Shown here: one piece after another, positions 3,580 to 50,873 of the stretch
How positions within the stretch are numbered: position 1 is the first letter of the stretch
How the letters are laid out: every line of letters begins with the position of its first letter
Virus record (IMG/VR): IMGVR_UViG_3300023180_000086
Span: 1-50,887 of that record
Strand: one strand, 5' to 3'
DNA from: a virus
Length of the DNA: 50,887 bases
Made by a program: the position numbers and the translations under genes
Notes under the pieces: generated by a model
Databases searched by the model: none
The model's input: only the letters and a program-made list of their open reading frames with translations
Told to the model about the DNA's origin: nothing

Positions 3580-4007
3580 TGATACACCTTAAATGGAAGT
3601 GTCCCATCCTTATAACCCTGAAAATCTTCTTTAAACTCTTCTAACCTTGGTTCAATATCATCTGACTTGACAATCCAGAACTGTGCCCCAACGTGTATTG
3701 CCTTTTCAATCTCACGTTCATCTGCGCTACTAGAAATAATACCAATAACAACACCATTACCGTAGTCGTGATTGATCTTATCTATCAGCTCTATACCATC
3801 AAAAGAAGATCCGATAATATTTAGGTCAGCAAAAACTACATCAGGCTTCTCGTTTGGTGAGTTCTGAATATCTTCAAATAGACTTGCAGCTTCCTCTGAA
3901 CTATACATGGCTTCTAAGTTAAAGGTAATGTCAAGAAGGCTACAAGCATCCTCAAACACAAGGTGAAACAAATCTTCATCGTCTACTAATAAAATACTTC
4001 TAATCAT
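3576..4007 (-). CDS. single-domain response regulator (receiver)
   Basis: A 143-residue CheY-like receiver with no output domain. Acidic pocket D9-D10-E11 (LLVDDED), phospho-acceptor D61 (VVFADLNI), Ser92 (IISSS) and Lys114 (WIVKSDD) are all in place, so it should accept phosphate. Only about 20 residues follow the receiver. The ATG lies behind GGAG and overlaps the kinase stop by ATGA; the next gene overlaps in the same way. In the receiver family the partner would be the histidine kinase just upstream. With no DNA-binding domain, the output must be protein-protein, perhaps to the membrane protein downstream. Confidence 0.88.
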   Translation of the reverse strand: MIRSILLVDDEDLFHLVFEDACSLLDITFNLEAMYSSEEAASLFEDIQNSPNEKPDVVFADLNIIGSSFDGIELIDKINHDYGNGVVIGIISSSADEREIEKAIHVGAQFWIVKSDDIEPRLEEFKEDFQGYKDGTLPFKVYQ

Positions 4008-5023
4008 TGAGTCTCCAAAATACGTCGTAAATCTATCGCTAGAGAAGTACCTGGCTCATCCGTACTTTTCACCTTGATATCACAATCGTGCTCTTTAAGT
4101 ATTGCTAAAGCAATATTAAGACCCAACCCTGAACCGCCATCAAAGTTTTCTTCTTTTCGCTTGAATGGGAGACTCAGCTCTTCAAACTCTTCCTGAGTCA
4201 TCCCGATCCCATTGTCTTTTACTATAAGGTACTCACCATCTACTGTAACCCAAACCTTAACTTTTTGCTTAGATTCGTTGTACTTTATTCCATTTCTAAT
4301 AAAGTTATCAATCGCAGTGCAGAAAAGGGATTTATTTGCATTTAGGTTCGGAAGATTACCCACCTCAACACTAGCATAGTAGGCTGTGTGTTTTAAGTAA
4401 AAGTCCAAGGCTTCCTTAAGATTGAATACCTCTTTATCTAGCTGAGAGCGCTCTTTCACTAAGTTTGTAAAAGCATAGACACCTTGATACACCGTTCTTG
4501 TGTGTATGAGTCCCCGCTCGAGCATCTTAATTGCGGCGCCTAACTTAAGCTCGTTAATTAAGTCAGGAGTCAGCTTTGCTTGTAGCATAGAAAGACCCCT
4601 AGGAAGATAAGTATTAATACCAGAGTGCATATCATGTCTAATAATACGATTAGAGTACTCAAGAAATACCTTCTTTTGGTATAGCTCCTCTCTAATTTTT
4701 ACTTTTTCCAAGATGGCTGAGTTGATCTTAAAAGAGCTCTTTAACCACTTATCATAGGCAAGATTTTGCCCTGGCACAAAAATGCCATGACGATAATGCG
4801 TAGGCATCTCCTTTCCCTCTTCGTCAGTAACGAAAATCTCTGTCCGAAAGATCTCTTTTATAATTAGGTTCTGGTAAGTATTCTCTAGTTCGCTCTTAAG
4901 ACCCGAAAGTACGCCACTCTCCGAGAAATGGAAACGAGGACACCCATCTAACTCTATAAAAGAGTTTGGATTATTGTAATCTCTTGGAGACCAGCAAATG
5001 CTATACCATACACCTGTAGTCAC
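4004..5023 (-). CDS. soluble sensor histidine kinase
   Basis: A 339-residue kinase. Residues 1-110 form an unrecognised, probably sensory, region with no TM helix or signal peptide. An H-box has His130 in IIRHDMHSG. The C-terminal HATPase_c domain shows the N-box (DNFIRNGIKYN, 239-249), G1 (DNGIGM, 270-275) and G2 (GGSGLGLNIA, about 296-305). All catalytic elements appear intact. The GTG start has GGAGAAG upstream and overlaps the stop of the hydrolase gene (GTGA); the receiver gene follows with an ATGA overlap. A complete kinase/receiver pair inside a phage late operon is unusual. Its target could be host physiology or a late lysis or assembly decision; the sequence does not say. Confidence 0.88.
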   Translation of the reverse strand: MTTGVWYSICWSPRDYNNPNSFIELDGCPRFHFSESGVLSGLKSELENTYQNLIIKEIFRTEIFVTDEEGKEMPTHYRHGIFVPGQNLAYDKWLKSSFKINSAILEKVKIREELYQKKVFLEYSNRIIRHDMHSGINTYLPRGLSMLQAKLTPDLINELKLGAAIKMLERGLIHTRTVYQGVYAFTNLVKERSQLDKEVFNLKEALDFYLKHTAYYASVEVGNLPNLNANKSLFCTAIDNFIRNGIKYNESKQKVKVWVTVDGEYLIVKDNGIGMTQEEFEELSLPFKRKEENFDGGSGLGLNIALAILKEHDCDIKVKSTDEPGTSLAIDLRRILETQ

Positions 5024-5799
5024 TTTCTTCTCCTATATTCGTAAGTGCCTTGTGCAATAGCTGGGATTGTAAATCCAGCCCCCTGGAATCTAGATGTCTT
5101 AAATGCAGCCTCTCCCTTTGGCTTAAACTGAACAACAGGAGGATTACTTAGAGATCTAAAATCAATTGAAGTCATCATTCTTGGAGACTTTGTATGGACT
5201 ACTCCTACTTTCTTTTGAATATCAGCAACAAAAGATGAACATAGAACTTTGCCATCAATAGGATCTCTGCCAAATATCTTATCTAATGCAATCCTTTCTA
5301 GATTTGTATCCCCAAAGATAGCCATTCCTCCTAGCCCAGCATCGTACTTGTAGTTATTCAGTTTAACAGCTTGCTCGGCGTGTGTAACCATTCTCTGACG
5401 CATTGCGTCTGAAACATTAGGTCTTATCGCTAGCACTCCTTTATCACCTTTTTTTAAGTAATCAGAAAGCGTTCTTGTATGAACATCTCGACCTGGACCA
5501 ATATGAGCTAGACGCCCATCTCCTAAGTAAATAGCACTATGAAGATACTTACCCTCGGATAGCCGGAATAAATTGGTTTTCATTTTAGGAAAGAATCCCT
5601 TATTTTCTTTCCCTACTAATAAAACATCTCCTGGCTTTAGATTTTTTTGAAATGTTGGGATACTCTCAGTAGTTACCTTAGGGACAAGTCGCTGTAAGTT
5701 GCGTAAACGTGACCCTCTTCTTGCCAGTTTTAATCCTAGGGCTAAACTTGGTAAACTGATGCTGGCAAAGCCAATACTAACTTTATCTTCTCTTTTCAT
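5020..5799 (-). CDS. permuted NlpC/P60-like (YiiX-type) cysteine hydrolase
   Basis: A 259-residue protein. Residues 1-45 include a short hydrophobic stretch (8-25) and basic residues. Then LKPGDVLLVG (55-64) is followed by YLHSAIYLGDG with His87, and by VLCSSFV with Cys187. This His-before-Cys order and the PGDVLL opening are typical of circularly permuted papain-like (YiiX/YebB, LRAT-like) enzymes, which act on peptides, amides or lipids. The catalytic reading is inferred from these motifs. The start overlaps the glycosyltransferase gene by 17 bases; the stop overlaps the kinase GTG start. It may act on the cell envelope during entry or lysis. Confidence 0.65.
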   Translation of the reverse strand: MKREDKVSIGFASISLPSLALGLKLARRGSRLRNLQRLVPKVTTESIPTFQKNLKPGDVLLVGKENKGFFPKMKTNLFRLSEGKYLHSAIYLGDGRLAHIGPGRDVHTRTLSDYLKKGDKGVLAIRPNVSDAMRQRMVTHAEQAVKLNNYKYDAGLGGMAIFGDTNLERIALDKIFGRDPIDGKVLCSSFVADIQKKVGVVHTKSPRMMTSIDFRSLSNPPVVQFKPKGEAAFKTSRFQGAGFTIPAIAQGTYEYRRRK

Positions 5800-7348
5800 A
5801 GTACTCTCTAAGTTTGTTGCGATTCTTATAAGCTAATAGCCCTGCTCCACCCAATGCAACTCTTGCAGCATTTAACCTTAATAGCCTTCTATGCAGAGGA
5901 GCAAGTGGATTATTCTCAGCAATCCTTTTTGAAGTGACTAGATTTGCGATCTCAGTAGCCCCTCCATCAGCTGCAACACTAAGTCTAGAGTATCCCTTTT
6001 TCTGGCTAGAGGGGTTGGCAAAGAAATCATCAAGGGGCTGTACTCGATCCTGCTGAATATATACGGAACTTCTAATGTTTGGCTTGTACATCTTTTCAAT
6101 AGCAAAAGTATTTCTATAGCTTGGGCCGGCTTTAGAAACTGTGTTGTCCAAGAAAATCTTAAACGGTTTCCCAGCTGCACGAGCTTCTGTAATTGTAGTC
6201 CCGCCAGGTCTAATGATGTTTAGATCTGCCTCTTGCATCATCTTTGATAGGTTAGCAAAGCCTTCAATATTCAATGTAACACCAAGAGCCGCAGCTTTTC
6301 CTTTCATACTGTTGAGTCTTCTAATAAGTTTTGGATCATAAAGTTTGTGGCCTTTCTTACCTGCATAGCCTGTTACCACATGAATCGTTGCACCCTGCGG
6401 TAAGTTCTTAGACTTTAAGACAGTGTTAAGACCATCCTCAACGCCCATTCCCAAGGCTCCGCCAGAAATCGTAATGTTATACCCCTTGGGTAATATTTTA
6501 GTAAAGCTTTTCTTAGGAGGAGAGATGGGTAATGCAGATACTGTGTGAATTCTTCCTTTAAGAGTTGGGTGCTCTTTTTGTAGAATGGGCGCTGCGCTAG
6601 GTGTAGCAATATGCTGAGAGAAGCTGCCCATCGTGTTTTGAAAGAATGGATTGGGCATCTTAAATGGGGCCTGATCGGTATGCACAGTGTATATTGGGCT
6701 ATCAACATGCTTTTGCAAGAACATATCCATTCCAGAGTGCATATTAACGATCTGCTTGCCCGCTGTATCTTTACTAAACTTTTCCCAGTCGATCCCATTT
6801 GTATAGTAGTCATACGCCTTTACAGCATTTCCTGCGAGGTCTTTTGTCCCTTTGATAGTATCACGAGGCGTAAAAATCTTATTGAACTCTTGCATTCTAC
6901 CAGGAAACGCATAATCATCAAGATTCACTAACTGTACTTCAACCCCCTTTTTCTTTAATGCTTCAGCAACTGCCTTACCTTGATTTCTGTGGCCCGCCCC
7001 ACGGCTGTCATCAGTGTGTAGAACTACAAATGGAGCATCTGGCCTAAGGGCTCTCTTCTCTGTAGGAAGTAATCCCATTCCGACATACATTCCACTGCCG
7101 CCTGCTAATCCTGTAGCCGCAATAGTATTTTCTGTTTTATCCGACAGACCGGTTAGGGAAGCTATCTTTTCAAGCTCTAAGTAATAATACTTACCAGCTG
7201 TCTTTGTAAACTTATGGTCGGGTTTCATCTTTTTATAGATGCCCATAATGTATGCATAGTTATCTTTCTGGCCAGACTTTCTAGCAATCTCTGTTGCTCT
7301 TTGCCATTTCTCTTCATCACGTTTAGACTTAACTACACTATTAGGCAT
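5783..7348 (-). CDS. GT28-like glycosyltransferase (MGDG synthase/MurG type) with capsid-type tag
   Basis: A 521-residue protein. Residues 1-45 form a basic helical region ending in YIMGIYKKM. LELEKIASL (57-65) is the KxA motif shared with many virion proteins. A GT-B fold covers about 105-440: TDDSRGAGH (112-120) in the N-domain, HTDQAP (223-228), SGGALGMG (295-302) opening the C-domain, and the nucleotide-sugar loop PGGTTITEARAAGKP (381-395) with Glu388. These are the hallmarks of GT28 enzymes that glycosylate membrane lipids. The C-terminus is basic. It sits among tail and virion genes and just before a hydrolase gene. The KxA motif suggests packaging and proteolytic release, so it may be an ejected enzyme that modifies host lipid or envelope. 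Enzyme class is fairly sure; substrate is unknown. Confidence 0.78.
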   Translation of the reverse strand: MPNSVVKSKRDEEKWQRATEIARKSGQKDNYAYIMGIYKKMKPDHKFTKTAGKYYYLELEKIASLTGLSDKTENTIAATGLAGGSGMYVGMGLLPTEKRALRPDAPFVVLHTDDSRGAGHRNQGKAVAEALKKKGVEVQLVNLDDYAFPGRMQEFNKIFTPRDTIKGTKDLAGNAVKAYDYYTNGIDWEKFSKDTAGKQIVNMHSGMDMFLQKHVDSPIYTVHTDQAPFKMPNPFFQNTMGSFSQHIATPSAAPILQKEHPTLKGRIHTVSALPISPPKKSFTKILPKGYNITISGGALGMGVEDGLNTVLKSKNLPQGATIHVVTGYAGKKGHKLYDPKLIRRLNSMKGKAAALGVTLNIEGFANLSKMMQEADLNIIRPGGTTITEARAAGKPFKIFLDNTVSKAGPSYRNTFAIEKMYKPNIRSSVYIQQDRVQPLDDFFANPSSQKKGYSRLSVAADGGATEIANLVTSKRIAENNPLAPLHRRLLRLNAARVALGGAGLLAYKNRNKLREYYEKRR

Positions 7349-10299: not shown

Positions 10300-10360
10300 G
10301 TTAACCTCCATAGCGTTATCACTAGATTAACATATAACGAACCGTTAGACTATGCTATTT

Positions 10361-13046: not shown

Positions 13047-13571
13047 TTACCTCTGTTGTTGTTGTGCCTGTGGTTGAGCCTGTTGTGGTTGCTGTTGCTG
13101 CGCTTGTTGAGGCGGCTGCGGTGCTGGTGCTGGAGCCGGCTGGCCACTAGACATTTCTGGTTGTGTATTTTGTTTATTAATGAATTCTGTTGCTTGCTCT
13201 TTCATCTTTGATAGAGCTTCTTCTTTCTTAGCTTGAATGTATCCTTCACGCTTTGCTCTGGCGATCATCTCTTCACCACCAGTGATCCAACCCGGTTCCT
13301 GCATATTTGGAACAAACTTTTGTAGTTTTGGATTGAATGTGTACCCAGGTACAGGTAGAATCATCGGGTTCATTTTGGCTGTTCCATCCTTCATCTTAGA
13401 AAACTGGACCCCAAACATCTGCCCTGGGGATGTCACCTTCGGATCTTTAATTCTTTTAATCTCTGTAACTTCATCTATAGTCTCTTCTTTTACTAGAGAA
13501 GCAGAGGAGTCAGCGTCCTGCGGCTGGTTCGCAATCTTTTCCAACTCTTGAAGAAAGTAGCTTGTGATCAT
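13047..13571 (-). CDS. KxA-tagged virion protein with P/Q-rich tail
   Basis: A 174-residue protein. LQELEKIANQ sits at residues 7-16 if the start is the ATG at 13571 (AGGA seven bases upstream), a better choice than the ATG six codons earlier. The middle holds a conserved-looking PVPGYTFNPKLQKFVP stretch, then a coiled helix, then about 40 residues of almost only P, Q and A. The N-terminal motif suggests capsid targeting or maturation cleavage. Function unknown. Confidence 0.65.
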   Translation of the reverse strand: MITSYFLQELEKIANQPQDADSSASLVKEETIDEVTEIKRIKDPKVTSPGQMFGVQFSKMKDGTAKMNPMILPVPGYTFNPKLQKFVPNMQEPGWITGGEEMIARAKREGYIQAKKEEALSKMKEQATEFINKQNTQPEMSSGQPAPAPAPQPPQQAQQQQPQQAQPQAQQQQR

Positions 13572-13578
13572 TAAAGTC

Positions 13579-14532
13579 CTATCGTGCATTTCTTTTTTCT
13601 ACCTCTTTCAATAGATTCTTATATCTGCTTTGCTTTTTACGATTATTCATCACTGCTGAGATACCACCAAGAACACCAAGAGCCAGAGGAGCCTTCGATC
13701 TACTCAGTATAAACTTCTTTAAAAAGTCTCTTTCAAGCTTCTTCTGAGAAGGTGCAATTAATCCTAATCGCTTAGCACGGTCTGTGCCAACGTCATACAG
13801 TTTGGTGAACTGTTTAGTGTCTAGTAGCGACCCTGATCGACCTACACTGGCATAATCTTTTGCAATGATAGTTTGCGCAGTAGGCTCTTTAAACATCGTA
13901 TTAAAACGATTCTTTGCCTCAGCAGCATCCACTCCATGTATTTGTTGGATGTCTGAAAGTATAGCATTCACACCATTCCTATCAATTGACTTTCCTTGTG
14001 CAATGCTTTGATTAACTCTATCCACTGTCGTGTTACCAGTTACTATCGGAGTCCATGAATGATTTTTTGTTAAATTTTGAGGGATTGATCCATCAAGCTC
14101 TTTCTTAATTGCATTTTCAAAACTATTTTTGATCTCATAATCCGGAATAACCACAGACCCCGGGACACTAATAGTCTGATTGCTTCTAACAATCATCGGG
14201 GCCAAGTCGTCTGCATTCTTAGCACCACCTTCTAACAAACCTTGCTTGATGTAGAAGGTATCAATCTGACGATTTGTATTTGCCTCTACCTGCTTCATTA
14301 AAGTCTTAGTATCTACTGACCCAAGACCCAATGCCAAAGGCACAGCAAAGGACACACCCATACCCTTAGCAAAAGCCTTTGCCGAAGAGTATGGATCTGT
14401 TGAAGCACGTAAGTTCTCAAGAGCACCCTGCGATTGCTCTTCTCGCAAGATGTCTTGAGGCGTTACCTTAGCAACTTTTTCCAGTGCTGAAGCGAAACTT
14501 ACAGCTGTAATGTGATGTCGATGTAGTTGCAT
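13579..14532 (-). CDS. KxA-tagged virion protein (317 aa)
   Basis: A 317-residue protein with FASALEKVAKV at residues 13-23, then helical regions and a hydrophobic segment near 52-68, and a basic end. It overlaps the sheath gene by 34 bases out of frame; no other start codon is available before the motif and no ribosome binding site is visible, so translation is probably coupled to the sheath. Function unknown; the motif suggests an internal or cleaved virion protein. Confidence 0.62.
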   Translation of the reverse strand: MQLHRHHITAVSFASALEKVAKVTPQDILREEQSQGALENLRASTDPYSSAKAFAKGMGVSFAVPLALGLGSVDTKTLMKQVEANTNRQIDTFYIKQGLLEGGAKNADDLAPMIVRSNQTISVPGSVVIPDYEIKNSFENAIKKELDGSIPQNLTKNHSWTPIVTGNTTVDRVNQSIAQGKSIDRNGVNAILSDIQQIHGVDAAEAKNRFNTMFKEPTAQTIIAKDYASVGRSGSLLDTKQFTKLYDVGTDRAKRLGLIAPSQKKLERDFLKKFILSRSKAPLALGVLGGISAVMNNRKKQSRYKNLLKEVEKRNAR

Positions 14533-17692: not shown

Positions 17693-18472
17693 CTAAGATG
17701 ATGATGTACTGACCCAACGAAGTATCTCGACGCCGTCTGAGTCACTATTGACCTCTCCGTCACTATCTATAGCATCTGGAAACAATAGAGATCCGTTAAG
17801 TTTTCTAGCGATTGTGTTAACTGTAACACTAATTTCTGAAAGTGTCTGTGCTGTTGGTGTGATTGACCACGTTTCTTGGTAGTAAACAGGAAATGAAACT
17901 GGGACATTAATAAAGTCCTCATCGCTGTCTCCACCTAAAAAAGAGTTGGCTGGCGATTCAGAACCAACGGTAACCCTCTGGCCAATCTGAAAGAATCCAT
18001 ACTTCTGTAACTCTCTACGATAAAACTTAAGCGCTTTAGCAACTGACATTGCTAAAGTTTCCGCCTCCAGACCAATCCTGGAGATACAGTTTATTACGTA
18101 TTGTCCTGTTAACATATCTGTATGCGTTCTCTTTCCGGTTGATATTTTATGATTTCTTAGATTGTCTAACCCAAGGTTTGCGTAATTAAAAGGGGTCCTT
18201 GAAACGATAATTGCGGGTCTTTTTTCGATTGTATCTGTACCGATCGTCCCCGAGTCCGTTATTATTATCTCCGTCACCGTCTCGCTCGTTCCCCCTGAAA
18301 ATGGGTCCTCGTCCGGTGTGTAAAGGAACTCCCCCGTCTCCTGTTGGCTGAAATAGTGGCGAAGAAACTTGAGGATTATGTCCTTGGTGTCGCTGAGAAT
18401 GTTGTTGCTTAGAGGATAATACGTTCTTATTACGGTTTCTCTTGCTGCTATTGCGTCGCTTCTTGTTCCCAT
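17693..18472 (-). CDS. probable tail terminator or neck protein
   Basis: A 259-residue protein just upstream of the sheath. It has RPAIIVSRTPFNYANLGLDN and, later, VPVSFPVYYQETWSITP, a beta-rich pattern seen in proteins of the neck/tail-terminator class in large myophages. AGGA lies about ten bases before the ATG. Its first 287 bases overlap the preceding gene out of frame. Assigned mainly by position between the neck protein and the sheath. Confidence 0.6.
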   Translation of the reverse strand: MGTRSDAIAARETVIRTYYPLSNNILSDTKDIILKFLRHYFSQQETGEFLYTPDEDPFSGGTSETVTEIIITDSGTIGTDTIEKRPAIIVSRTPFNYANLGLDNLRNHKISTGKRTHTDMLTGQYVINCISRIGLEAETLAMSVAKALKFYRRELQKYGFFQIGQRVTVGSESPANSFLGGDSDEDFINVPVSFPVYYQETWSITPTAQTLSEISVTVNTIARKLNGSLLFPDAIDSDGEVNSDSDGVEILRWVSTSSS

Positions 18473-18716
18473 CTAAATAATCCTTTATCGCTTTGTTAGT
18501 CATTATAGCAGAACTACCAGCCAGTAGCCCACTTATTACTGCACGAGCTCTGCTTGAGGGTGCCTTCTTTAAAGCTGATAAACCCCTTTCAGATACGTAC
18601 GCAGTTCCAGCTCCAGTACCCACGGCGAGAGCTGCCCTAACAGCATCTAAAGCTTGCTGCTTTCTTTCATTGATCTCTGCTATCTTTTCAAGCTCTCTAT
18701 AAAAACTATTTTTCAT
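18186..18716 (-). CDS. KxA-tagged glycine-zipper protein overlapping the next gene
   Basis: A 176-residue protein. RELEKIAEI at residues 7-15 is followed by a helical region with small-residue repeats (AALAVGTGAGTAYV, ISGLLAGSSAIM) that could insert in a membrane, then a basic hinge. The last 95 residues are read out of frame over the start of the next gene and are low-complexity (N, R, G, D). Start at 18716 chosen for GGGA seven bases upstream. The functional part is probably the first 85 residues; the tail may be passenger sequence. Confidence 0.55.
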   Translation of the reverse strand: MKNSFYRELEKIAEINERKQQALDAVRAALAVGTGAGTAYVSERGLSALKKAPSSRARAVISGLLAGSSAIMTNKAIKDYLDGNKKRRNSSKRNRNKNVLSSKQQHSQRHQGHNPQVSSPLFQPTGDGGVPLHTGRGPIFRGNERDGDGDNNNGLGDDRYRYNRKKTRNYRFKDPF

Positions 18717-18741
18717 ACTCATATCCCAATCTTATCAAAGC

Positions 18742-23104: not shown

Positions 23105-24169
23105 TTAGTAGGTGCTAACACTTGGGAAGACGATACCACCGTCCTCAGCAGAAGCCAAGTTGAATACACCATTACCATCGGCATCACCTGTACCAACAGC
23201 TGACTCAGAAGGCATTGCGTCTGGAGTAGTAGCCTTGTTGTACAAGATCAAGCGATTGATAGAGCTGACGTTACCAATACCCATACCAATGTCTTCATAG
23301 CATTGGAAAGTAATCAAGTTAGCGACCTTGTCAATGTAGAACTTAGTGTTGTTCAGTACAAGGAACTTACCCAAGAACTCCGGAGAAGTAAATCCATAGA
23401 TGTTACCAGTAGGCAAGATGTCAGTTTTGATAGTACGAACGATCTTACGACCCATAATAGTGTCAAAGTTGAAGCCGTCGATAACAACTTTACCTTGTAC
23501 AGTATCACCGAAGTCTTCAATAGTCCAAGCCAAACACTCGTCCCAGTTAACTTCGTTCATCAATACTTTGTCCAAACGACGACGCTTACCGTCCATGTTC
23601 TTGAACATTTTGATCAAGTCACCGCGCTGGAGAGTACCTTCAAATCCAGTACCAGTACCATTAGCAGCGATATCGTCAGTAGCTTGCTCACCCATAACCT
23701 GTTGGTTAGCAATGTCATTTCCAACACAGCTGTGGCAGTAAGTCAAAAAGCGATGGTCTTCTACTTCTTGAATGTCTTTAACAGCATTGTCTTCAATGAT
23801 CTTGGTGATTGGCATACGATATGCCATCAACTCTTGCTCAGTCTTTTCAAACTTTTCAGAGCTGATAGTGAAGAATGGAATCTCGTAGCGAGCACCTTGA
23901 ATGTAACGAACACGAGGTTGGCCACGGAAAGTCAAAGATACTGCTTGTGAGTTTGGCTCAATCTCATCTACGTATACCAGAGTGTCGTGGTTAACAGAGA
24001 CTTGCAAGTCTGCTTTAGAAACCATTTGTGGTGGCAAGATTTTACGAGCAAAAGAATTCTCACGCAGCTTGTCTCTAATGTAAGCATTGGCAGCTGCAGC
24101 GAGCTTTTCTTTGCCTTCAGGAGAGTCCAAGTGTGCGGAGAAAATACTATTTAATGATGTACCGTTCAT
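23105..24169 (-). CDS. major capsid protein (HK97 fold)
   Basis: A 354-residue protein. The N-terminal helix (LNSIFSAHLDSPEGKEKLA ... AYIRDKLRENSFARKILP), the strand RVRYIQGARYEIPFFTI and the E-loop/P-domain region around QELMAYRMPITKIIEDN fit major capsid proteins of large myophages. EGKEKLAAAA at residues 18-27 resembles the presumed protease site, so a short N-terminal cut is possible. GAGGAG lies before the ATG. It follows a decoration-type gene and precedes connector genes, the usual capsid position. Confidence 0.85.
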   Translation of the reverse strand: MNGTSLNSIFSAHLDSPEGKEKLAAAANAYIRDKLRENSFARKILPPQMVSKADLQVSVNHDTLVYVDEIEPNSQAVSLTFRGQPRVRYIQGARYEIPFFTISSEKFEKTEQELMAYRMPITKIIEDNAVKDIQEVEDHRFLTYCHSCVGNDIANQQVMGEQATDDIAANGTGTGFEGTLQRGDLIKMFKNMDGKRRRLDKVLMNEVNWDECLAWTIEDFGDTVQGKVVIDGFNFDTIMGRKIVRTIKTDILPTGNIYGFTSPEFLGKFLVLNNTKFYIDKVANLITFQCYEDIGMGIGNVSSINRLILYNKATTPDAMPSESAVGTGDADGNGVFNLASAEDGGIVFPSVSTY

Positions 24170-25994: not shown

Positions 25995-27527
25995 CTAGAG
26001 AGACCCGAGTAATATACGGGCACTTGAAAAGTTATTAAAGTTAAGATCCCATTCCGGAACTACATCTGTATTATAATATACATTATGTAGATATGGGACT
26101 GTTAAAGAAAGATTATTTTGTGAAGAAACTTTTGTCAAAGAGTCAGTTAGCATATCGTTAAAGAAGTTTTTATAGTAAAAGTCCATATCATCTTCTACAA
26201 CACTATCCAAATCAGCGCCAATTGTTCTTAAACTTTTTCTGTATCCTGCATACGCTGACGCCACTTTATTAAGTATGTCTCCGCTGCCTTCTGTCATCCG
26301 TTGTACTGGTTTAATAACAGTAATACGCACAATCCGATTAGGCAAGTGCGGAGCAAAAGCAGACCTCCCTGGAATTAAGGAGGACAAAAGTCTTGCTATA
26401 CCACCGTCGTACATTGACCGTTCTATCCGTGGAGCCGGACCTATATGAGTTCTTCCCATTGGGAAAATAGTATTGGATGCCCTAAAAGAACTAGCCAAGT
26501 CTGGCCGTCCCATTCTTCTTAGCATTCCATACTGGAACTCATGAGGTTTTGCTACCATACCAAGCATAGCCATTGTTGATAGCAACTTCTCAAAAGGCAT
26601 TTTATCCATAAAAGCTCTTGGAATGTTTGGCTCACAAGACTGCGCTTTTATTAAAGATTCGCTTACAGCATTCGGTAGAATTTTTTTCTTAACTTCTGCA
26701 AGTTTTTTATAGGAAGCAACTTTTTCTCTTAAGCTGTGTTGCGCAGAAGCAACTTTCATTAGAACACCAGCCTCTTTTGCAGCTGGTACAAATACATCAG
26801 ACAAGTCGAAAAATCTAGGGAAAAAGTTAATGGCACCAACTACAGTTCCATCATCACGCACTCTTCCCATTTCGTTTGCAAGATGGCTGCAGTAATCCCT
26901 TGTAGTCTTAGAAACGTTACCGCATACGGAGCATACATCAAAAGGAACCTTACATCCCATAGAGATTTGACGAGGCTTACCGTTATCAATATCAACAATA
27001 ATCTGCTCGGCACCAACCTCTCTGGCTTTTTGCCTATCGTGACGAACAATCAATTCTACACGGTGCATAGGCCTGTTGTAGGTAACAAAAACAATGTCAC
27101 CAAAAGCGATTTCCGGATTTTTGTTGACGTGATGCTTATACCGAAGTGCATTCATGAAGGTTCGAAAGCCAAACTCCTTGATAGGAACTGGTGGCAAACT
27201 TTTGCCGTGAGGCTTAAGATAACGTCGTTCTAACTCGTCAATTACCTTCTGGGGATTATCAGTAAGATAGTCATGACCTAAAGAGATCTCGGGGAAGATG
27301 TCCCCGTTTACATTCATACCCCAAAACTCATGAGCTCCCATAGGGGTCATAAGAACGTATTGATACTTAGGGTCAGGTTTAATGCTACGAATAAATGCTT
27401 GCAGCTTAGGGTCTAAGTTACCAGCTACTTTTGTCATTCCCGACTTACTGGGGTTTACATCAATAGCTTCAGCGAAACATCTACCTAAAGTATCATGAGT
27501 ATGAAAGTGTATAACTTTTTCTAACAT
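25995..27527 (-). CDS. probable prohead (head maturation) protease
   Basis: A 510-residue protein. Residues 55-200 look like the herpesvirus-assemblin/HK97-type protease fold: a strand followed by YKHHVNKNPEIAFGDIVFV (His132/133 as catalytic candidate) and RQISMGCKVP (Ser189). A cysteine cluster follows at once: CSVCGNVSKT ... DYCSHL (199-215), as I remember from proteases of some large phages. The remaining about 300 residues contain KxA sites of its own (LMKVASA, REKVASY, LNKVASA), which fits self-cleavage. It stands before scaffold-like, decoration and capsid genes. The KxA motif in many virion proteins is its likely target. Confidence 0.65.
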   Translation of the reverse strand: MLEKVIHFHTHDTLGRCFAEAIDVNPSKSGMTKVAGNLDPKLQAFIRSIKPDPKYQYVLMTPMGAHEFWGMNVNGDIFPEISLGHDYLTDNPQKVIDELERRYLKPHGKSLPPVPIKEFGFRTFMNALRYKHHVNKNPEIAFGDIVFVTYNRPMHRVELIVRHDRQKAREVGAEQIIVDIDNGKPRQISMGCKVPFDVCSVCGNVSKTTRDYCSHLANEMGRVRDDGTVVGAINFFPRFFDLSDVFVPAAKEAGVLMKVASAQHSLREKVASYKKLAEVKKKILPNAVSESLIKAQSCEPNIPRAFMDKMPFEKLLSTMAMLGMVAKPHEFQYGMLRRMGRPDLASSFRASNTIFPMGRTHIGPAPRIERSMYDGGIARLLSSLIPGRSAFAPHLPNRIVRITVIKPVQRMTEGSGDILNKVASAYAGYRKSLRTIGADLDSVVEDDMDFYYKNFFNDMLTDSLTKVSSQNNLSLTVPYLHNVYYNTDVVPEWDLNFNNFSSARILLGSL

Positions 27528-27536: not shown

Positions 27537-28391
27537 TTAAGTAATGTCGCCAGGCTTCATTTGGTGTTTAGGACCAAAGAATGGCATCTCAGTTTCTTGG
27601 TAAAGTTTTTCTAATCTTAACACGTCTGCAAAAGTTTGCGGAGTGATTTGTGGGATTTCCATCATATTAGCCAAAACTTTTGAAGCCATTACTGGTTCTC
27701 TTGCCACTGTAGGAGCTGTTCTATGCAAAACTTTATAAAGTTTTTTTGCTTTGTCGTTCTTCAAAGAGGGATCTTCCTTAACTACGGCATTGTAATCACG
27801 GTTAACACTTCCTCTATTTAAGTACTTAAGACCTTTACCAATACCGTAAGTGGCCAAAGGAGCTCCAGCTCCGATGCCAATACCGGCAAGACCATACATC
27901 AAAGCGTCTCTAGCAACACCTTTAGCGCTCGCTTGTTTTATAATTTGTTTATGCTTATACATATTAGCTCCACCAGTTTTTGCCATAGGCACATAAGATT
28001 GGTACGGGCCTAGGTTTGTTTTTTGTACTAAGTTTCTTGCGGATTTAAAATCGATCTTTTTTTCTGCGACCATAGACTTTGGGTTCAAAAACATATTTGC
28101 AATGCTATCTTTACCACCCAATGCTGGTGCTAGGTTAACCCCGGGAAGCCCACCAACCACTGCCACACCTGATCCACCTAAGAACACCTTTCCCATAGTT
28201 CCTTCAGTTTTTCCTAGTGCTTGCATGTAGTTAGATCCACCTCGCTTTAATGCAGGAAGAACCTTGCCGGCTGTAGCCTTTGGTAGATTTCTTAGGCTTT
28301 TAAATAAGTTGTATCCCTTGTTTGCGACGGCCATACCTGCCCGTGCAAATGCTTCTTTTTCTAAGCCATATACCTGGGATACAGATTTCAT
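27537..28391 (-). CDS. KxA-tagged glycine-rich internal virion protein
   Basis: A 284-residue basic protein starting MKSVSQVYGLEKEAFA (motif at 9-16), then glycine-rich hydrophobic stretches (VFLGGSGVAVVGGLPGV, YGLAGIGIGAGAPLATYGIG) and IIKQASA mid-way. N-terminal tag plus membrane-prone segments fit an internal protein that may be ejected with DNA. It overlaps the preceding gene by ATGA. Function not known. Confidence 0.65.
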   Translation of the reverse strand: MKSVSQVYGLEKEAFARAGMAVANKGYNLFKSLRNLPKATAGKVLPALKRGGSNYMQALGKTEGTMGKVFLGGSGVAVVGGLPGVNLAPALGGKDSIANMFLNPKSMVAEKKIDFKSARNLVQKTNLGPYQSYVPMAKTGGANMYKHKQIIKQASAKGVARDALMYGLAGIGIGAGAPLATYGIGKGLKYLNRGSVNRDYNAVVKEDPSLKNDKAKKLYKVLHRTAPTVAREPVMASKVLANMMEIPQITPQTFADVLRLEKLYQETEMPFFGPKHQMKPGDIT

Positions 28392-29257
28392 CGACGAGTA
28401 GTCCTAATCATTCGAGATAGTTCTTTATGCTTTGCTTCAGCACCTTCAAGCATAACATAAGCTTCTTTGTAAGACATTGCTAACTTTTCAAGCCTAGTGG
28501 CCGCAAAGAGCAATGGGTGCTCTGAGTTGATAACAACAGGCTCTCTTAGCAGAGCAGCCTCCTTAGCCGTATTGATCCGTACACCTTCGCCTTGCAATCG
28601 CTCAGAAGCTGTCTTCATAATTGATGAGGCAAAGTTTTCTGACTCGGTTACTTCTGAAATAGCTCTAGCGATCTGAAGAATCCCGATGTCATCTCTCATG
28701 TGTGCTTGCTTTACATGCCCATAGAACTCTTCAGAGGTATCTTCCATGGATCTCATAATAGTATTTAGACTATACTCAGCCATGTTCTTTACCGAAGCAA
28801 CTTTTTGCTGTTCAGCAACCATCTCAGAGGACTCATCCAATCTAGGAATATCAGCGTTGTCTTCTACTTTAAAGATTTGCTCCAGGTCGAAGTCACTTTG
28901 TTTCTTCTCTCCAGGATCAGTCGCATAATCTAATGTCTGATCTGGAACGGACACTGGACGCTCTCCCAACTCTTCAATCAAAGCAGATGCGTCAGCTGGT
29001 GCAAAGTGATCACGGTTACCACCTTCATGAAACTGAGCTTTCCATACCGCTTGGTTGGTCATCTCAGAAACTCTTTGAATTTGGTTTTTGTTTAAGTTCT
29101 CATTTTCGATTACACTTCTAATAGCATCGTTTAATGATTCAGACTCTTTTCCTACAAAGCTAGACGCTGCCCTCTTTGCTAGGACTTGAAGTTTTTCAGA
29201 CGAAGCAGTCTTAACAAGGCTACCAGCTAACTTTTCTAATTCATAGTTCATAGACAT
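28388..29257 (-). CDS. multi-KxA acidic virion protein
   Basis: A 289-residue helical protein with ELEKLAGS (6-13), LVKTASS, QQKVASV, IMKTASE and RLEKLAMS near the C-terminus. First gene of the head-tail operon. The sites divide it into several fragments, as expected for a core or internal protein processed by the prohead protease. ATG at 29257 or two codons later (29251). Function is inference. Confidence 0.65.
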   Translation of the reverse strand: MSMNYELEKLAGSLVKTASSEKLQVLAKRAASSFVGKESESLNDAIRSVIENENLNKNQIQRVSEMTNQAVWKAQFHEGGNRDHFAPADASALIEELGERPVSVPDQTLDYATDPGEKKQSDFDLEQIFKVEDNADIPRLDESSEMVAEQQKVASVKNMAEYSLNTIMRSMEDTSEEFYGHVKQAHMRDDIGILQIARAISEVTESENFASSIMKTASERLQGEGVRINTAKEAALLREPVVINSEHPLLFAATRLEKLAMSYKEAYVMLEGAEAKHKELSRMIRTTRR

Positions 29258-42037: not shown

Positions 42038-42994
42038 TTACTTTAGGCCCTTCCTCTGTAGATACTTTGTTAACTTTGTCTTTGGTGGTGGTACTAATTC
42101 TGGTTTCTTAAATGAGAAAGGTATAGAACGGATATAGTTCTCAGTAGGCTTCTTTACTCGCCTCTTAGACGCACTTGAAAGTAACCTAACACCAGGTAGT
42201 TTTTCAGAAGCAATTTTACCCAACTTTTCTGGGTCTGACATACCAGCATTCTGTAGGTTGCCTAGAGATTTCTTGGCAGTGGATATCAAGGTCTTGTTAA
42301 GTTTTTTTGTAACAATCGGAGCACTGGCGTTTTGTACTGACATTTGAGGCTTTGGTACAGCAAGCCCGCTTTTATTACGTCCTTTAGATCCAGTTACGGG
42401 TATAAGGTTCTTCTGAGCATGCTTTGCAAAAGGACGTACAATTCTAGGGTTGGCTTCAATGTGATCGGGCCGTACTGAGGACTGTAAAATTCTTTCTTTT
42501 AAGAACTTAGGAAGATTGTCATTGTAAGAAAGTCCTAGGTGTTTTTCTAGGTTCTCTACGTAATCTTTATTCAAACCTTCTGGAACAGACTCTCTTACTT
42601 TAGCCTTCATTGCAATCTGCGCATCCTGGCGACTCATTTTACCAGACATTACAGTCTGATTAACACGAGCTTCAATTGGTCCAGTTACTTCTTTTAACTT
42701 TTCTAAGAAGCCTTTTTCCATGTGCTCCTTTGGCTTTCTTGATCTACCAAACTTCTTGTAAGAGTCTTTGTATGCTCTTACTAAATATTCTGTTCTATTC
42801 AAGTCAGCGATACGAGACATAATGGCACTCTTTACAGCAGGCTCTAAACCTTCCTTATTTAGATAGCCCTGCAACAAGCCAAACTCTCTATGCACAGCAC
42901 TAAGCGCTGCATCCGGACGGTACGAATGCAGATACTTAAGAATATTTGGGTTTGCCACTTTTTCAAGCTCTAAACAGAAAGATTCATACATCAT
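42038..42994 (-). CDS. KxA-tagged basic virion protein (318 aa)
   Basis: A 318-residue basic protein beginning MMYESFCLELEKVANP (tag at about 9-16) with LGKIASE near the C-terminus. It overlaps the stop of the 643-residue gene (TAATG). Two N-terminal methionines are possible starts. The tag and basic composition fit an internal DNA-associated protein. Function unknown. Confidence 0.65.
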   Translation of the reverse strand: MMYESFCLELEKVANPNILKYLHSYRPDAALSAVHREFGLLQGYLNKEGLEPAVKSAIMSRIADLNRTEYLVRAYKDSYKKFGRSRKPKEHMEKGFLEKLKEVTGPIEARVNQTVMSGKMSRQDAQIAMKAKVRESVPEGLNKDYVENLEKHLGLSYNDNLPKFLKERILQSSVRPDHIEANPRIVRPFAKHAQKNLIPVTGSKGRNKSGLAVPKPQMSVQNASAPIVTKKLNKTLISTAKKSLGNLQNAGMSDPEKLGKIASEKLPGVRLLSSASKRRVKKPTENYIRSIPFSFKKPELVPPPKTKLTKYLQRKGLK

Positions 42995-44925
42995 TACATC
43001 ACCTTACTACGTAATCCCGATAGACCATCAATAACAGTTGTCATCTGGCTAAGAGCATTCTTAGCTGCTACTTCTTTGATATCATCCATACCAAGACGGC
43101 TCGCTACCAAGATCTCTGCCAACTTCTGCGCGGTTTTTTCGAACTCAGGAATGTAGTTAATATACATGCCAACGTTCTCTGGTGTCAAGAACTTAAGAGA
43201 TAGAATAGAATCTACAGTTTCTTTATCCACGATGACAGAAGCTTCTTTTACAAGATCTACTTGGAGAGAGCTAACATCTACTCTTGACTTTGCGATCTTA
43301 GACATGATTGCATCTTTAAGGTCAGTCGCTTTGTTGATTGTTCTGTGCTGATAGATGTTTGCATACCCATTTGCAGAAGCCTTCTTCATCAAAGAGCTGG
43401 ACTGTGTATCGGTCAAACCATAAGCGGCAAGTGCAAAGTGTGTATCTCTTGCATTCATAATGTCATCAAATGACGAACCCTTTAACTGCCAAGACATCCC
43501 ATCAGAGATAAGTTGCATTGAAGATGCCTTTTTCAACATTTCTCTTTCTCTGTGATCAACAGTTCCAGAAGCCACTTTGATACGACCTTCAGGGAGGGCA
43601 ATAAAAGACATAGAAGAGGGGATGGCATAGTGGCCAGATCCCATTGAGGCAATCTTACGGATACCATCAATCTTAGAAATCTTAACAGTTTCACCAGTAG
43701 AAAGTCTTTTACCGACATAGTACGCGATCTTCTCTTTGCCAAAGGGTGCTTCTACCATGTTTTGAATATCAAGTACTTCTGTAGCAAGAGCTCTGTTGCC
43801 ATCTTGTAGAGCAAAGACTCCCTTTCCTCGTATATTGGTATCAGGGAGTGTAGCTTTTGATACAAACCTACCAACCATGTCTTCTTGCATAGCAGACGCA
43901 GTTTTAGTAATGAGTAGCTTTGTGTACATCTGGTTGCCATCGAGATCAACCATCTTTGGAATAACCATACCAGTTACTTCGTCTTGGCCTGACTTAACCT
44001 CATAGTATCCCAGGTGATTAATGTCAGATGCTTCTTTAATAATCTCAGACTTTTTTTGAACAGGGTCTACTGTATAGGTAACAAAACTTTCTGAACACAA
44101 CTTCTCAAAGCCTTCTTTGTTTAAGTATGCCTGTGCTTCAAAGCGAGTAACCTCTTTTTCTACTGGGTCGTAGGCATGATGACTAGCAGTCTTTAAGAAG
44201 TATCTCGATCCTTCTTTACGAAACTGTACTACCGATGGCTTTACGGATTCTTGTCTAAGCGACGCAATGCTAGAAGCAGTTTTTTCTTTTGTAGTAATAA
44301 TGCGCTCTACAGCTTGTCCAAATGCGGGGTTTGATACAGCTGCATATCGAAGACCTGCACTCTTTGTCAGTTCGTTCTTAAAACTATTGATCTGAGATGC
44401 ACTTGCGTTCAACAAGGCAGCATCCAAAGCCTTTACACTGCTATGCTTGTGGATACCAACAGACTGCCGTAAGCGCTGTGCAGGAGGATCGATCTGAGCA
44501 CCCAACCCTGTTGCACTAAACTGTCCTGGTCTAGCCGAGCGATCAAACATCTCTGGCTTAAACAGCGTTTCAGAGATAAAACTTTCACTAGCTGGTCTAA
44601 TCTCATCTTTGTGAGATATTACATCCAAGGGTGCTACCTCATGATTACGGATTATAATCGGGAATGAAACGATCCTGTCAGACTCAGCTGCAGCTTGCTT
44701 TTCCATCTTGTGAGGGTATACCATCATCTTACCTACACCAAAACCTCTAGACTCATCAGTACGATCAATGGATACATCTACTTCATAGTTTCGAAGGTAA
44801 GGAACTTGCTTGTAAGCCTCCTGAAGAATGGTGATAGGCCACTCCTTTGAGTCTTTACCAAGTTGTGTTGAGTATGCAAGTTTTTCAAGACTGATCTTGT
44901 TTGCACGTTCTAATAAAGGTTTCAT
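42994..44925 (-). CDS. large virion protein with more than ten KxA sites
   Basis: A 643-residue protein with SLEKLAYS (12-19), MEKQAAA, LTKSAG, KEKTASS, FLKTASH, IIKEASD, ITKTASA, IRKIASM, LKKASS, LMKKASA, LVKEASV and FEKTAQK spread along its length. No TM helix. The spacing suggests that it is cut into many pieces, or that the motif marks domain borders. GGAG precedes the ATG. I do not recognise a family; by size and site number it may be the main internal or core protein. Confidence 0.68.
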   Translation of the reverse strand: MKPLLERANKISLEKLAYSTQLGKDSKEWPITILQEAYKQVPYLRNYEVDVSIDRTDESRGFGVGKMMVYPHKMEKQAAAESDRIVSFPIIIRNHEVAPLDVISHKDEIRPASESFISETLFKPEMFDRSARPGQFSATGLGAQIDPPAQRLRQSVGIHKHSSVKALDAALLNASASQINSFKNELTKSAGLRYAAVSNPAFGQAVERIITTKEKTASSIASLRQESVKPSVVQFRKEGSRYFLKTASHHAYDPVEKEVTRFEAQAYLNKEGFEKLCSESFVTYTVDPVQKKSEIIKEASDINHLGYYEVKSGQDEVTGMVIPKMVDLDGNQMYTKLLITKTASAMQEDMVGRFVSKATLPDTNIRGKGVFALQDGNRALATEVLDIQNMVEAPFGKEKIAYYVGKRLSTGETVKISKIDGIRKIASMGSGHYAIPSSMSFIALPEGRIKVASGTVDHREREMLKKASSMQLISDGMSWQLKGSSFDDIMNARDTHFALAAYGLTDTQSSSLMKKASANGYANIYQHRTINKATDLKDAIMSKIAKSRVDVSSLQVDLVKEASVIVDKETVDSILSLKFLTPENVGMYINYIPEFEKTAQKLAEILVASRLGMDDIKEVAAKNALSQMTTVIDGLSGLRSKVM

Positions 44926-48807: not shown

Positions 48808-49607
48808 TAAGTCCCCCACCCTAACTCTTTTAGAGTAGCCGCTCTTACCTGAGACACATCTGGAAATGAGTTTATACCACCAGTCATAGTATTCATTAAC
48901 TCTTGTTCTTTTTTTCCAATCTCAAACAGCTCTTCTAATGAAAACTTCTTCCCTCTTTTTTCTTTTTGTAGTTTTCGATACTCTTGTCGTGCTGCAGCTT
49001 GCCTCTCTGCCCGCAATCTTGACTGCATTTTTCTTTCAGTATTCACATAAGTATTCCAGTCTTTATCAATCTTTCGCATTTTATTCTTACTCATTCTTCT
49101 ACCCTGTAGCGCACCCTGCAAGGTTTGGGCATGCTGCGGCATTAGACTGGAATAGGTATCTACCTCTTTTTGCCTCATCAATCTAATTCCTTCTTTAACT
49201 TCTCTTTCTACTACTGGGTTGGGATCTGTAAAAGTCGCCATGATATTTAAATCGGGTAACCAAGCTCTTTGATTGTTGTGATTTCCACCTCTATCAGCTT
49301 TAGAGATTCTTCTTGCAGCATTTGGTCTTCGATGTTTTAAAAATTGTCTTAGCTCTCTACCCTCATGTAGCACCACCATGGCGTTCATAGCACGCTGCGT
49401 TCTTGGATGTAAAGGCTTATCAGACTGCTTAGGCAATAAGCGCGTTATGTTTCCCTTTACTTTTATAATCGGTACTTTAGGGTCACTAAGATCCATATAC
49501 CCAGTAGGAAATTTTTGCTTAGCCCTAAAGAAGTAGGGCTTAGATCGTAACTTCATAGCAGCTGTTTCTAACTGTTGTAAGGTAACTGCTATTTTTCTTA
49601 GACTCAT
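48807..49607 (-). CDS. basic virion-type protein (266 aa)
   Basis: A 266-residue strongly basic protein. VVLHEGRELRQF (about 78-89) contains an HE-x-x-E stretch of the zincin kind but lacks the second His, so no enzyme is called. A helical basic C-terminal half follows. MSLRKIAVT at the start is a degenerate KxA tag. It overlaps its neighbours by TAATG at both ends. Confidence 0.6.
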   Translation of the reverse strand: MSLRKIAVTLQQLETAAMKLRSKPYFFRAKQKFPTGYMDLSDPKVPIIKVKGNITRLLPKQSDKPLHPRTQRAMNAMVVLHEGRELRQFLKHRRPNAARRISKADRGGNHNNQRAWLPDLNIMATFTDPNPVVEREVKEGIRLMRQKEVDTYSSLMPQHAQTLQGALQGRRMSKNKMRKIDKDWNTYVNTERKMQSRLRAERQAAARQEYRKLQKEKRGKKFSLEELFEIGKKEQELMNTMTGGINSFPDVSQVRAATLKELGWGT

Positions 49608-50116
49608 TACTGTCCCCTCTTTTTATCTTGAAGATACTTTTTGACCTTTTGTCCACCCTTGTAAGTACCGTATGCTAATGTTCCATACCCTATGCCTGTA
49701 CCGATGTTTTGGTTTCTCTTTAAAACTTTCATATCAGTTTTCATGTCTTTAAGTTCTGACAAATATTGTGAGGTTTCATCTTTTACCCTTTTTAGGTCGT
49801 CAGGAGTAAGATTTAAAAAATCTAGGTCGTCAGGAGTAAGAGGGTCATTAAGAGATCTTTGGAAAGCAGTCTCCTTAGAGATTTCCTTATCTATGTCACG
49901 AAGCATATTTTTCGCGTTTCTACTAAATTCAATTCTATGTTTTGCAGTTCCTATCGGCGCGGCCACTGCTTCAAAGGCCTTGGCGGGAATAATTTTAAGA
50001 CTTCTGGGGTTAAAATTGGGGCCATTGCCAGATATTGCATCCGATATCCTTTCTACTCCTTTAAGATATTTTTGTCTTAAACTTGCACGTTTTTCTATAT
50101 ATTCATGTACGTTCAT
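49607..50116 (-). CDS. KxA-tagged virion protein, MNVHEYIEKRA
   Basis: A 169-residue basic protein whose N-terminus is the clearest form of the tag, MNVHEYIEKRASLRQKYL. A Gly-rich segment lies near the C-terminus (NIGTGIGYGTLAYGTYKGGQ), and the middle is coiled. An internal repeat LTPDDLDFL/LTPDDLKRV corresponds to a duplicated stretch at about 49794-49840. Probably targeted to the prohead and cut after the tag. Function unknown. Confidence 0.68.
   Translation of the reverse strand: MNVHEYIEKRASLRQKYLKGVERISDAISGNGPNFNPRSLKIIPAKAFEAVAAPIGTAKHRIEFSRNAKNMLRDIDKEISKETAFQRSLNDPLTPDDLDFLNLTPDDLKRVKDETSQYLSELKDMKTDMKVLKRNQNIGTGIGYGTLAYGTYKGGQKVKKYLQDKKRGQ
49794..49840. repeat. short direct repeat inside a gene
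   Basis: AGGTCGTCAGGAGTAAGA occurs twice, 29 bases apart, encoding repeated LTPDD motifs of the overlapping minus-strand gene. A recent small duplication. Confidence 0.65.
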
Positions 50117-50144
50117 TGTTATCCCTTTTTTATTAGTTGCGTTT

Positions 50145-50873
50145 CTATTTCTTTAATGGCATCGGTTTCTGGAAACTAGGAGGCCTCGCCGTCTGTCCCC
50201 AACGGATGCTATTCATCAGATTCTTTACAGAGTCTCGACCAATTTTACGGTCAATGGGTCTACCCCATTCCTTATTTGCCTTAAGTACGCCTTTTGCGTA
50301 ATTCCAAACATTAGGGTGTATTTGTCTGGCCCTAGTCTTCTTGTACCCTTCAATGCCAACTGTTTTAGGTCGAGCTACAACGGTCATCCCTCTTTTAATA
50401 GGAACATTTCCTGATCTGATGTGATGTCCCCTGTGAGCTTTGTAGCTGGCGGGCCTCATTAAGATGCTGCCGTCAGCCTGATCTACAGCGGATCCAGTAT
50501 CCCCATCATACCCCCTTTTCCCTAGTCTTCGTTCTTTATAGACTCGAGCCTCAGACGCTGGTATGGTATGAGGTTGTCCCATTACATGACCACGATCACC
50601 TATGATCAACCCATAGTCTTTTTTTCCGCTCTTGTAATATGGATTACCCACTTTACCCTTTTGGTGATCAATCCAGTAGCTGCCGTAACCTGTTTTGGTT
50701 CTGTGTGGATCTCTTGTTATCCTAACAACGCCTTCATCCATTAATGAGCGAATAGATTTAGAGGCGTGGGAAGCAGAATCCTCTCTTGTCATTAAAGCTA
50801 ACGCCCTGCGGTATTGTTTCTGAACAGATTTATTTGAAACTGCTAGTTTTTCTATATATTCATGAATATTCAT
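50145..50873 (-). CDS. KxA-tagged virion protein, MNIHEYIEKLA
   Basis: A 242-residue basic protein opening MNIHEYIEKLAVSNKSVQK, the same tag as the next gene. The rest has no recognised domain; it is rich in Lys, Arg, His and Gly, with repeated G-Y/G-R motifs (GYGSYWIDHQKGK, KRGYDGDTG). AGGA lies before the ATG. Only the first 14 bases of the window's right end lie beyond it. Probably internal; function unknown. Confidence 0.62.
   Translation of the reverse strand: MNIHEYIEKLAVSNKSVQKQYRRALALMTREDSASHASKSIRSLMDEGVVRITRDPHRTKTGYGSYWIDHQKGKVGNPYYKSGKKDYGLIIGDRGHVMGQPHTIPASEARVYKERRLGKRGYDGDTGSAVDQADGSILMRPASYKAHRGHHIRSGNVPIKRGMTVVARPKTVGIEGYKKTRARQIHPNVWNYAKGVLKANKEWGRPIDRKIGRDSVKNLMNSIRWGQTARPPSFQKPMPLKK

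Follow-up and report, generated by a model that had tools for sequence, protein, structure and literature searches.

Closest described systems

The internal proteins of phage T4 and its Alt protein are made with N-terminal propeptides, which are cut off by gp21 at the motif L/I-x-E. Ejected head proteins are a known class, in which a GT28 glycosyltransferase as cargo and a K-x-A cleavage site were not found described. The present locus is a gene for a GT28-type glycosyltransferase (GT) with the motif LELEKIASL near its N-terminus, on the 50,887-base virus record IMGVR_UViG_3300023180_000086. The whole of this stretch, called the window below, codes for a contractile-tailed phage with terminase, capsid, sheath, and protease genes. 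The motif belongs to a tag that is real and lineage-wide and that probably represents the cleavage site of a head maturation protease, as its places in the protease itself and in linkers of multidomain relatives suggest.

In phage SPN3US, gp245 cuts head proteins after A-x-E, and eight of nine substrates are cut at N-terminal propeptides (PMC10052503, parts of the text). The phage group of the window resembles SPN3US and PhiKZ, which have gp245-type proteases, in that head-packaged ejected proteins would lose N-terminal propeptides at a short motif. The protease propeptide is C-terminal in SPN3US according to the same parts of PMC10052503, whereas the site in the protease of the window group is N-terminal. 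No GT cargo is mentioned in the introduction and discussion of that account. The motifs also differ, as it is K-x-A followed by S, A, or G in the window group, but A-x-E in SPN3US and L/I-x-E in T4.

Phage polyvalent proteins (Iyer et al. 2017, PMC5512222, passages covered) are mosaic enzymes predicted to be packaged and ejected, with an InPase module and reshuffled fusions as in L102 and L103, two relatives of the locus. The terms glycosyltransferase, NlpC, papain, lipid, and YiiX are all absent from the main text of that paper, and the passages covered describe no tag or cut site between domains. Several enzymatic domains, by which polyvalent proteins are defined, are present in L102 and L103, but the GT of the window has one enzymatic domain and an N-terminal module.

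The GT shares profile homology, a GGGH-type N-terminal loop, and a TxxE...AAGKP donor-site motif with GT28 enzymes (UgtP-like, MGD1, and MurG), and differs from them in its identity of about a third within the phage group and in the attached phage module and putative protease site. The partner encoded by the next gene resembles permuted NlpC/P60 enzymes (YaeF/YiiX C92, LRAT/PLAAT, and Tox-Act1), with His before Cys and with weak profile matches that are all to this group, and differs from them in its phage structural-operon context and in being paired with a GT28 enzyme. A jumbo-phage survey (PMC7824862) places glycosyltransferases in capsular polysaccharide clusters and NlpC/P60 proteins sometimes among tail-associated peptidoglycan peptidases, and does not give this pair in the parts covered. 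In a literature search over titles and abstract starts, no K-x-A head-protease site and no GT28 virion protein was found described.

The glycosyltransferase gene and its tag

The gene and its partner have the following features:

5783..7348, minus strand: GT28-type glycosyltransferase ORF, 521 aa (open reading frame list; profile with two relatives)
7208..7348, minus strand: N-terminal module, residues 1-47, common to N-termini of unrelated large-phage proteins (sequence comparison)
7193..7204, minus strand: KTAG, residues 49-52, first KxA[SAG] site (motif scan)
7154..7180, minus strand: LELEKIASL tag, residues 57-65, with predicted cut after Ala63 (motif scan)
6029..7036, minus strand: GT domain, about residues 105-440, with His120 (GAGH) and Glu388 (TTITEARAAGKP) (alignment of three sequences)
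5786..5899, minus strand: C-terminal hydrophobic stretch (about residues 489-506) and basic tail (sequence)
5020..5799, minus strand: partner gene, putative permuted NlpC/P60 (peptidase C92, YaeF/YiiX-like) hydrolase, 259 aa (profile and alignment)

The plus strand of 5783-7348 is full of stops, and the open reading frame (ORF) lies on the minus strand. The initial annotation had reported LELEKIASL at residues 57-65 and a basic C-terminus; the former is an exact match in the translated ORF, and the latter has a net charge of +5 over the last 20 residues. KTAG is a second site of the same kind in the GT, not mentioned before. When the GT protein was shuffled, LEKxA appeared in 335 of 20,000 shuffles and ELEK[ILV]A in three of 20,000. 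A K-x-A follows closely behind the N-terminal module in four of the seven other loci (FKTAS in L006, FKTAK in L002, KKGAS in L001, and KKAS in L004), while L005, L007, and L009 have the module without K-x-A close by. A second tag of large phages, VAxR[YWF], had one and two matches in L005 and L006, respectively, and none in L001, L002, and L004, and these counts were not over shuffle maxima. The tag was rejected as a marker of a C-terminal membrane anchor, as among ORFs C-terminal hydrophobicity was unlinked to it (p 0.68) and a basic C-terminus was only weakly associated with it (p 0.047).

Enrichment and position of the tag

The tag was counted in 61 ORFs of the window, kept from 90 listed after overlapping ORFs were dropped by eye. 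[DE]KxA occurs 46 times against a shuffled mean of 10.9 (maximum 23 of 500 shuffles), LEKxA 12 times against 0.5 (maximum 3 of 500), and KxA[SAG] 62 times against 22.2 (maximum 39 of 500). The excess lies on the 53 minus-strand ORFs (45 [DE]KxA vs 10.6), and the eight plus-strand ORFs have none (1 vs 0.8). Relatives supplied 1,037 ORFs, a set without the window lineage in which ORFs are mutually related and some will not be genes; among 8,000 a-b-x-c patterns, EKxA has the top rank there (586 vs 119.5), as does KxAS among 8,000 a-x-b-c patterns (551 vs 104). When 271 clusters are each reduced to a single representative, the excess shrinks but persists, with LEKxA at 12 vs 1.1 (maximum 4 of 200) in 10 representatives and KxA[SAG] at 103 vs 62.9 (maximum 83 of 200) in 50 of them.

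Genes of the window that bear the tag are:

23105..24169, minus strand: major capsid protein (PHROG 2522), EKLA near the N-terminus (profile and homology)
20458-21267 and 21284-21961, minus strand: two acidic repeat proteins with many [ED]KEAG sites, scaffold-like (motif scan)
27537..29257, minus strand: two proteins encoded next to the protease, both tagged (YGLEKEAF; YELEKLAGSL and further sites) (motif scan)
42994..44925, minus strand: 643-aa protein with 11 KxA[SAG] sites along its length, as if meant for cutting up in the prohead (motif scan)
13047..14532, minus strand: two ORFs with N-terminal LEK[IV]A tags (motif scan)
18186..18722, minus strand: ORF with N-terminal RELEKIAE tag (motif scan)
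42038..42994, minus strand: ORF with N-terminal LELEKVAN tag (motif scan)
49607..50873, minus strand: two ORFs with N-terminal HEYIEK[RL]A tags (motif scan)

ORFs 17693-18472 and 18186-18722 are both long and overlap in different frames of the same (minus) strand; the tag is clear in the second.

In a 195-kb relative (G025) divided into ten 20-kb bins, clear enrichment was found only at 120-140 kb, in the bin with the capsid gene, where KxA[SAG] reaches 47 vs 11.1 (maximum 19 of 100) and [DE]KxA 20 vs 4.7 (maximum 11). At 20-40 kb, [DE]KxA is a little over its maximum (9, maximum 8), and in the 20-40 and 100-120 kb bins KxA[SAG] equals, but does not exceed, shuffle maxima. In G022, the record of L103, enrichment is seen at 80-100 kb, where the capsid gene lies, but not in the GT-holding bin (1-20 kb) as a whole. 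G051, the record of L102, is as a whole not over the shuffle maximum for [DE]KxA or KxA[SAG]; its motifs bunch at 35.7-40.2 kb, the site of the GT polyprotein, and are sparse in the long genes that precede it. Enrichment was found in Vibrio phage D181 (140-187 kb) and, for KxA[SAG] only, in Bacillus phage G (1-50 kb), while the regions of mycobacteriophage I3 and T4 show no tag enrichment (T4 at 95-110 kb, [DE]KxA 7 vs 3.8, maximum 10). As a candidate cut site, the N-terminus of the capsid protein has a conserved EK[ILVM]A or near it, but mostly with E next and not S/A/G, and KxA[SAG] was found in the first 60 residues of only six of 48 capsid proteins.

For phage Arash, the 59 ORFs with a structural, head, or tail annotation contain five LEKxA (0.6 expected), and the 155 remaining ORFs of 80 aa or more contain none. 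KxA[SAG] occurs 54 times vs 32.5 in the structural class and 19 times vs 27.5 in the other class, which is impure, as 116 proteins were detected in particles and only part of them are annotated as structural (PMC10585845). The motif proteins of the Arash head cluster (gp218, 220-224, 226, and 242) were all detected in purified particles (PMC10585845, Table 2).

The putative head protease

The protease gene of the window and its site are:

25995..27527, minus strand: putative prohead protease, homologue of Arash gp222 and of a Gordonia phage Pupper protein annotated as capsid maturation protease (homology)
27420..27431, minus strand: KVAG at protease residues 33-36, a conserved KxA[SAG] site ahead of the core (alignment)

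Homologues were found in Arash, Vibrio phages, and Bacillus phage G, and in the sequences printed, regions around a His (HHVN or similar) and a Ser (SM[GA]C) are conserved, which we take from serine prohead proteases to hold the catalytic residues. KxA[SAG] lies within the first 60 residues in 41 of 47 homologues, three of which (L029, L043, and L049) are without the N-terminal end, against 3.1 in shuffled sequences (maximum 9 of 500). It sits between an N-terminus variable in sequence and length and the conserved core, a position that resembles an autocleavage propeptide site. When the homologues are clustered at 60% identity, 16 of 17 clusters carry the site, over a range that takes in Bacillus phage G, Arash, and the window; the exception has EKLSQ.

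In four multidomain relatives (L103, L102, L194, and L195), nine of the ten motifs counted fall in linkers, whose share of the sequence is 466 of 2,789 residues (p about 9e-7). Linker boundaries were set by homology anchors after the sequences had been seen, and only L103 and L102 are significant alone; the count covers spans between named domains, so that sites outside them (such as L102 residue 136 and its far C-terminus) do not enter it. The tag is shared by head proteins and the protease's own N-terminus, as in internal head proteins processed by a prohead protease. Because of the protease N-terminal site and the linker positions, the tag looks like a maturation-protease site (ELEKIA↓S, the arrow marking the cut), and we consider this its probable nature; the bond between A and S is suggested by the small residue that follows. 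The internal-protein tag of the initial annotation is genuine and common to head proteins, and better read as such a site than as a bare targeting peptide; the cleavage after residue 63 foreseen there agrees with the predicted cut. E-terminal cut motifs of the T4/SPN3US type were tried and rejected, with structural ORFs of Arash near shuffled counts ([ILV]xE 259 vs 244 and [SAG]xE 270 vs 276).

The enzyme and its partner

A profile of three phage GT sequences (window and two relatives) matched in PDB the UgtP-like processive diacylglycerol glucosyltransferase 9wde (1.6e-7), followed by MGD1 4wyi (4.7e-6) and MurG 7d1i (3.6e-4), and all remaining matches were 0.29 or worse. His120 and Glu388 are invariant in all three sequences and align with the MGD1/MurG loops; the matching residues in GT28 enzymes have a role in catalysis. 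GT domain identity is 32% between the window and L102, and 65% between L102 and L103. By profile comparison, the GT of the window is a divergent GT28 member, clear only at profile level with the two relatives. The "clear GT-B motifs" first reported for it were overstated, as the window protein alone reaches 15 bits (E 0.026) with Glyco_tran_28_C, whose cut-off is 22, and E 0.0035 with murG, under the NCBIfam cut-off; membership of GT28 was upheld at the profile level. No GT domain match was found in INPHARED phages with the GT of the window or of a relative as query. The GT domain was also absent from viral_contigs matches (exact window-domain peptides) and from GTDB genome contigs (two degenerate peptides), a weak absence given the few short peptides.

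In the partner hydrolase, His87 stands ahead of Cys187, which is the permuted order, and both are invariant in three of three sequences. It matches Pfam C92 with E 8.7e-4 and 19.8 bits, under the 27-bit cut-off. The partner profile has nine PDB matches with E values not above 10, all of them weak (best E 0.018) and all to lipid enzymes of the LRAT/PLAAT kind (HRASLS/PLA2G16/LRAT). No INPHARED match was found for the partner. YiiX holds a fatty acid (PMC3142127, in the part covered), and Tox-Act1, an effector with permuted NlpC/P60, is a phospholipase (PMC12994826, likewise in part).

The GT and hydrolase genes are adjacent in the window and fused in opposite orders in the two relatives. L103 is one protein of 1,080 aa with LigD_N, ATP-dependent ligase, and OB domains, then GT, then hydrolase, and L102 one protein of 1,240 aa with hydrolase, then GT, then an InPase-like domain, named by likeness to the family in PMC5512222. 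The hydrolase profile was found in four of 45 records, two of them rows of the profile, the further two being mosaic proteins (G039 and G017) without GT. The initial annotation proposed that the neighbouring hydrolase acts on the same envelope; the fusion to GT in both distant relatives supports a functional link, and membrane lipid is a likelier target than cell wall because the partner seems to be of the permuted, lipid-acting NlpC/P60 branch.

The mosaic proteins L194 982-2562 and L195 847-2664 consist of a module that we take to be DUF5661-like, followed directly by EKQAG, and of the same permuted NlpC/P60 and an InPase-like domain. Just ahead of the gene for the GT polyprotein, G022 codes for a tagged protein of 406 aa (L103 4654-5874), in which a cupin-like stretch can be made out by eye.

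A rather unlikely alternative is that the acceptor of the putative GT-B domain is not lipid but a nucleotide-sugar, nucleotide signal, protein, or DNA. Foldseek with a model of the L102 GT (pLDDT, the predicted local distance difference test, of 51; C-terminal half good, N-terminal half poor) showed as top matches GT-B enzymes (natural-product GTs) and UDP-GlcNAc 2-epimerases, the UDP-sugar hydrolase PseG is a weak sequence match of the GT, and the ligase and InPase fused to it in relatives act on nucleic acid or nucleotides. Lipid GTs nevertheless top the sequence profile ranking, MGD1 is among the VIA rows for the same L102 model (Z 15.1, root-mean-square deviation 5.2, 252 aligned), and the constant partner seemingly comes from a lipid-acting branch. 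The Foldseek and VIA rows shown for this model are of GT-B type, and a family missing from the VIA rows does not count as excluded.

Proposed packaging and alternative explanations

Cleavage at the tag would be needless if the motif were a docking peptide for scaffold, portal, or capsid and the GT were packaged whole. Such a peptide would explain that Arash motif proteins gp220, 221, 223, 224, and 242 were reported at 95-100% coverage in mass spectrometry (MS) (PMC10585845), and an amphipathic docking helix could be formed by the ELEK[IV]A that many window ORFs have close to the N-terminus. It would need neither the placement in linkers between domains nor one fixed place in the protease N-terminus with varying flanks, nor up to 11 copies in some proteins, and we regard it as unlikely.

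The start of the GT gene and the end of the preceding gene are 7 bases apart, and the GT gene overlaps the next; it is therefore probably expressed as part of the structural operon, where it had already been placed in the initial annotation. A relative (G009), a fragment reaching the same operon end, has a homologue of 10361-10708 and then a 77-aa tagged ORF, past which there is no GT or hydrolase and ORFs are mostly on the other strand; the GT cassette is therefore accessory. The GT might be made late and act unpackaged in the producing cell, in envelope change, superinfection exclusion, or lysis, in keeping with its place at the structural operon end beside a histidine kinase and response regulator and with an untagged partner. 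This is quite unlikely, as head-cluster proteins are where the tag concentrates, and the GT of two relatives forms part of mosaic proteins that also hold ligase or InPase-like domains and belong to a class for which packaging is predicted (PMC5512222, passages covered). Extremely improbable is that the tag arose by chance or from the composition of Lys/Glu/Ala-rich helices, since, although head proteins are K/E/A-rich by eye and the T4 region has a mild [DE]KxA excess too, composition-preserving shuffles never match the counts found in the window, in the head bin of G025, or in D181, and the position is conserved in the protease.

Proposed role

The reading that we prefer is that the GT is head cargo, which would be made with the structural genes and carried into the prohead. 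There, the head maturation protease would cut ELEKIASL at K-x-A↓[SAG] after Ala63 and so remove the N-terminal 63 residues (shared module and linker), and the mature GT28 would be ejected along with the DNA. In the host, it would glycosylate a membrane lipid, most likely of diacylglycerol type, with a nucleotide-sugar as donor, and the permuted NlpC/P60 enzyme of the next gene would work alongside on acyl linkages of lipids. The pair may thus remodel the host inner membrane early, for example, for repair or shielding once the DNA has entered, or as a block to a competing phage or membrane-linked defence. From packaging through the exact scissile bond and ejection to the lipid substrate and purpose, these are steps that we infer, and for the chain as a whole we hold the case to be evenly balanced.

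Several points weigh against this chain. The window GT on its own scores under every curated cut-off (Pfam and NCBIfam), two of the three sequences of its profile come from relatives, and its structural model is unusable (pLDDT 41). The GT is rare, found in one of 50 records searched and in one of 31 in another search, where that one (G051) was included since it was already known to carry GT. The partner of the window has no KxA[SAG] or [DE]KxA tag in the motif scan, and some [DE]KxA matches of the window look like chance, such as DKPA in the sheath. In Arash, 45 of the 59 annotated structural ORFs are without [DE]KxA, and most virion proteins are without the motif. The near-complete MS coverage of its motif proteins means that cut pieces, if these are cleaved, stay in the particle, or that cleavage is partial or absent, and the words 'protease' and 'cleav' are absent from the Arash paper (PMC10585845). 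Virion detection of motif proteins is from this distant phage, and the window phage is known here from sequence alone.

More broadly, and only tentatively, the phage group may pack a GT28 glycolipid synthase and a PLAAT/YiiX-type acyl enzyme in the head, singly or as polyproteins that the protease would cut apart at K-x-A↓S within the prohead, with host lipid rebuilt on entry.

Other features of the window

Directly after the GT and hydrolase genes, 3576-5023 (minus strand) codes for a HATPase_c histidine-kinase protein (E 1.1e-14) and a response-regulator domain protein (E 2e-10), and this two-component pair sits within the phage structural operon. The C-terminus of the product of 8111-9457 (minus strand) matches DUF5754 (E 1.1e-14) and PHROG 220 (minor head protein and DNA pilot). 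Its neighbour 9454-10311 has a short W..A..IYKK module, in layout by eye like the GT N-terminal module. The tail sheath protein (14499-17717, minus strand) is unusually long, with 1,072 aa, and the sheath profile covers only residues 878-1068, the large remainder being unmatched.

Biological meaning

The phage group concerned is large and mostly uncultured. If K-x-A↓[SAG] is a head-protease site, the cargo of hundreds of metagenomic phages would be predictable from sequence, and the motif claim is directly testable on the isolated phage Arash. If the proposed role is true, ejected lipid glycosylation together with lipid hydrolysis would be of a kind not found described for phage virions, and membrane remodelling would be an early step of infection.

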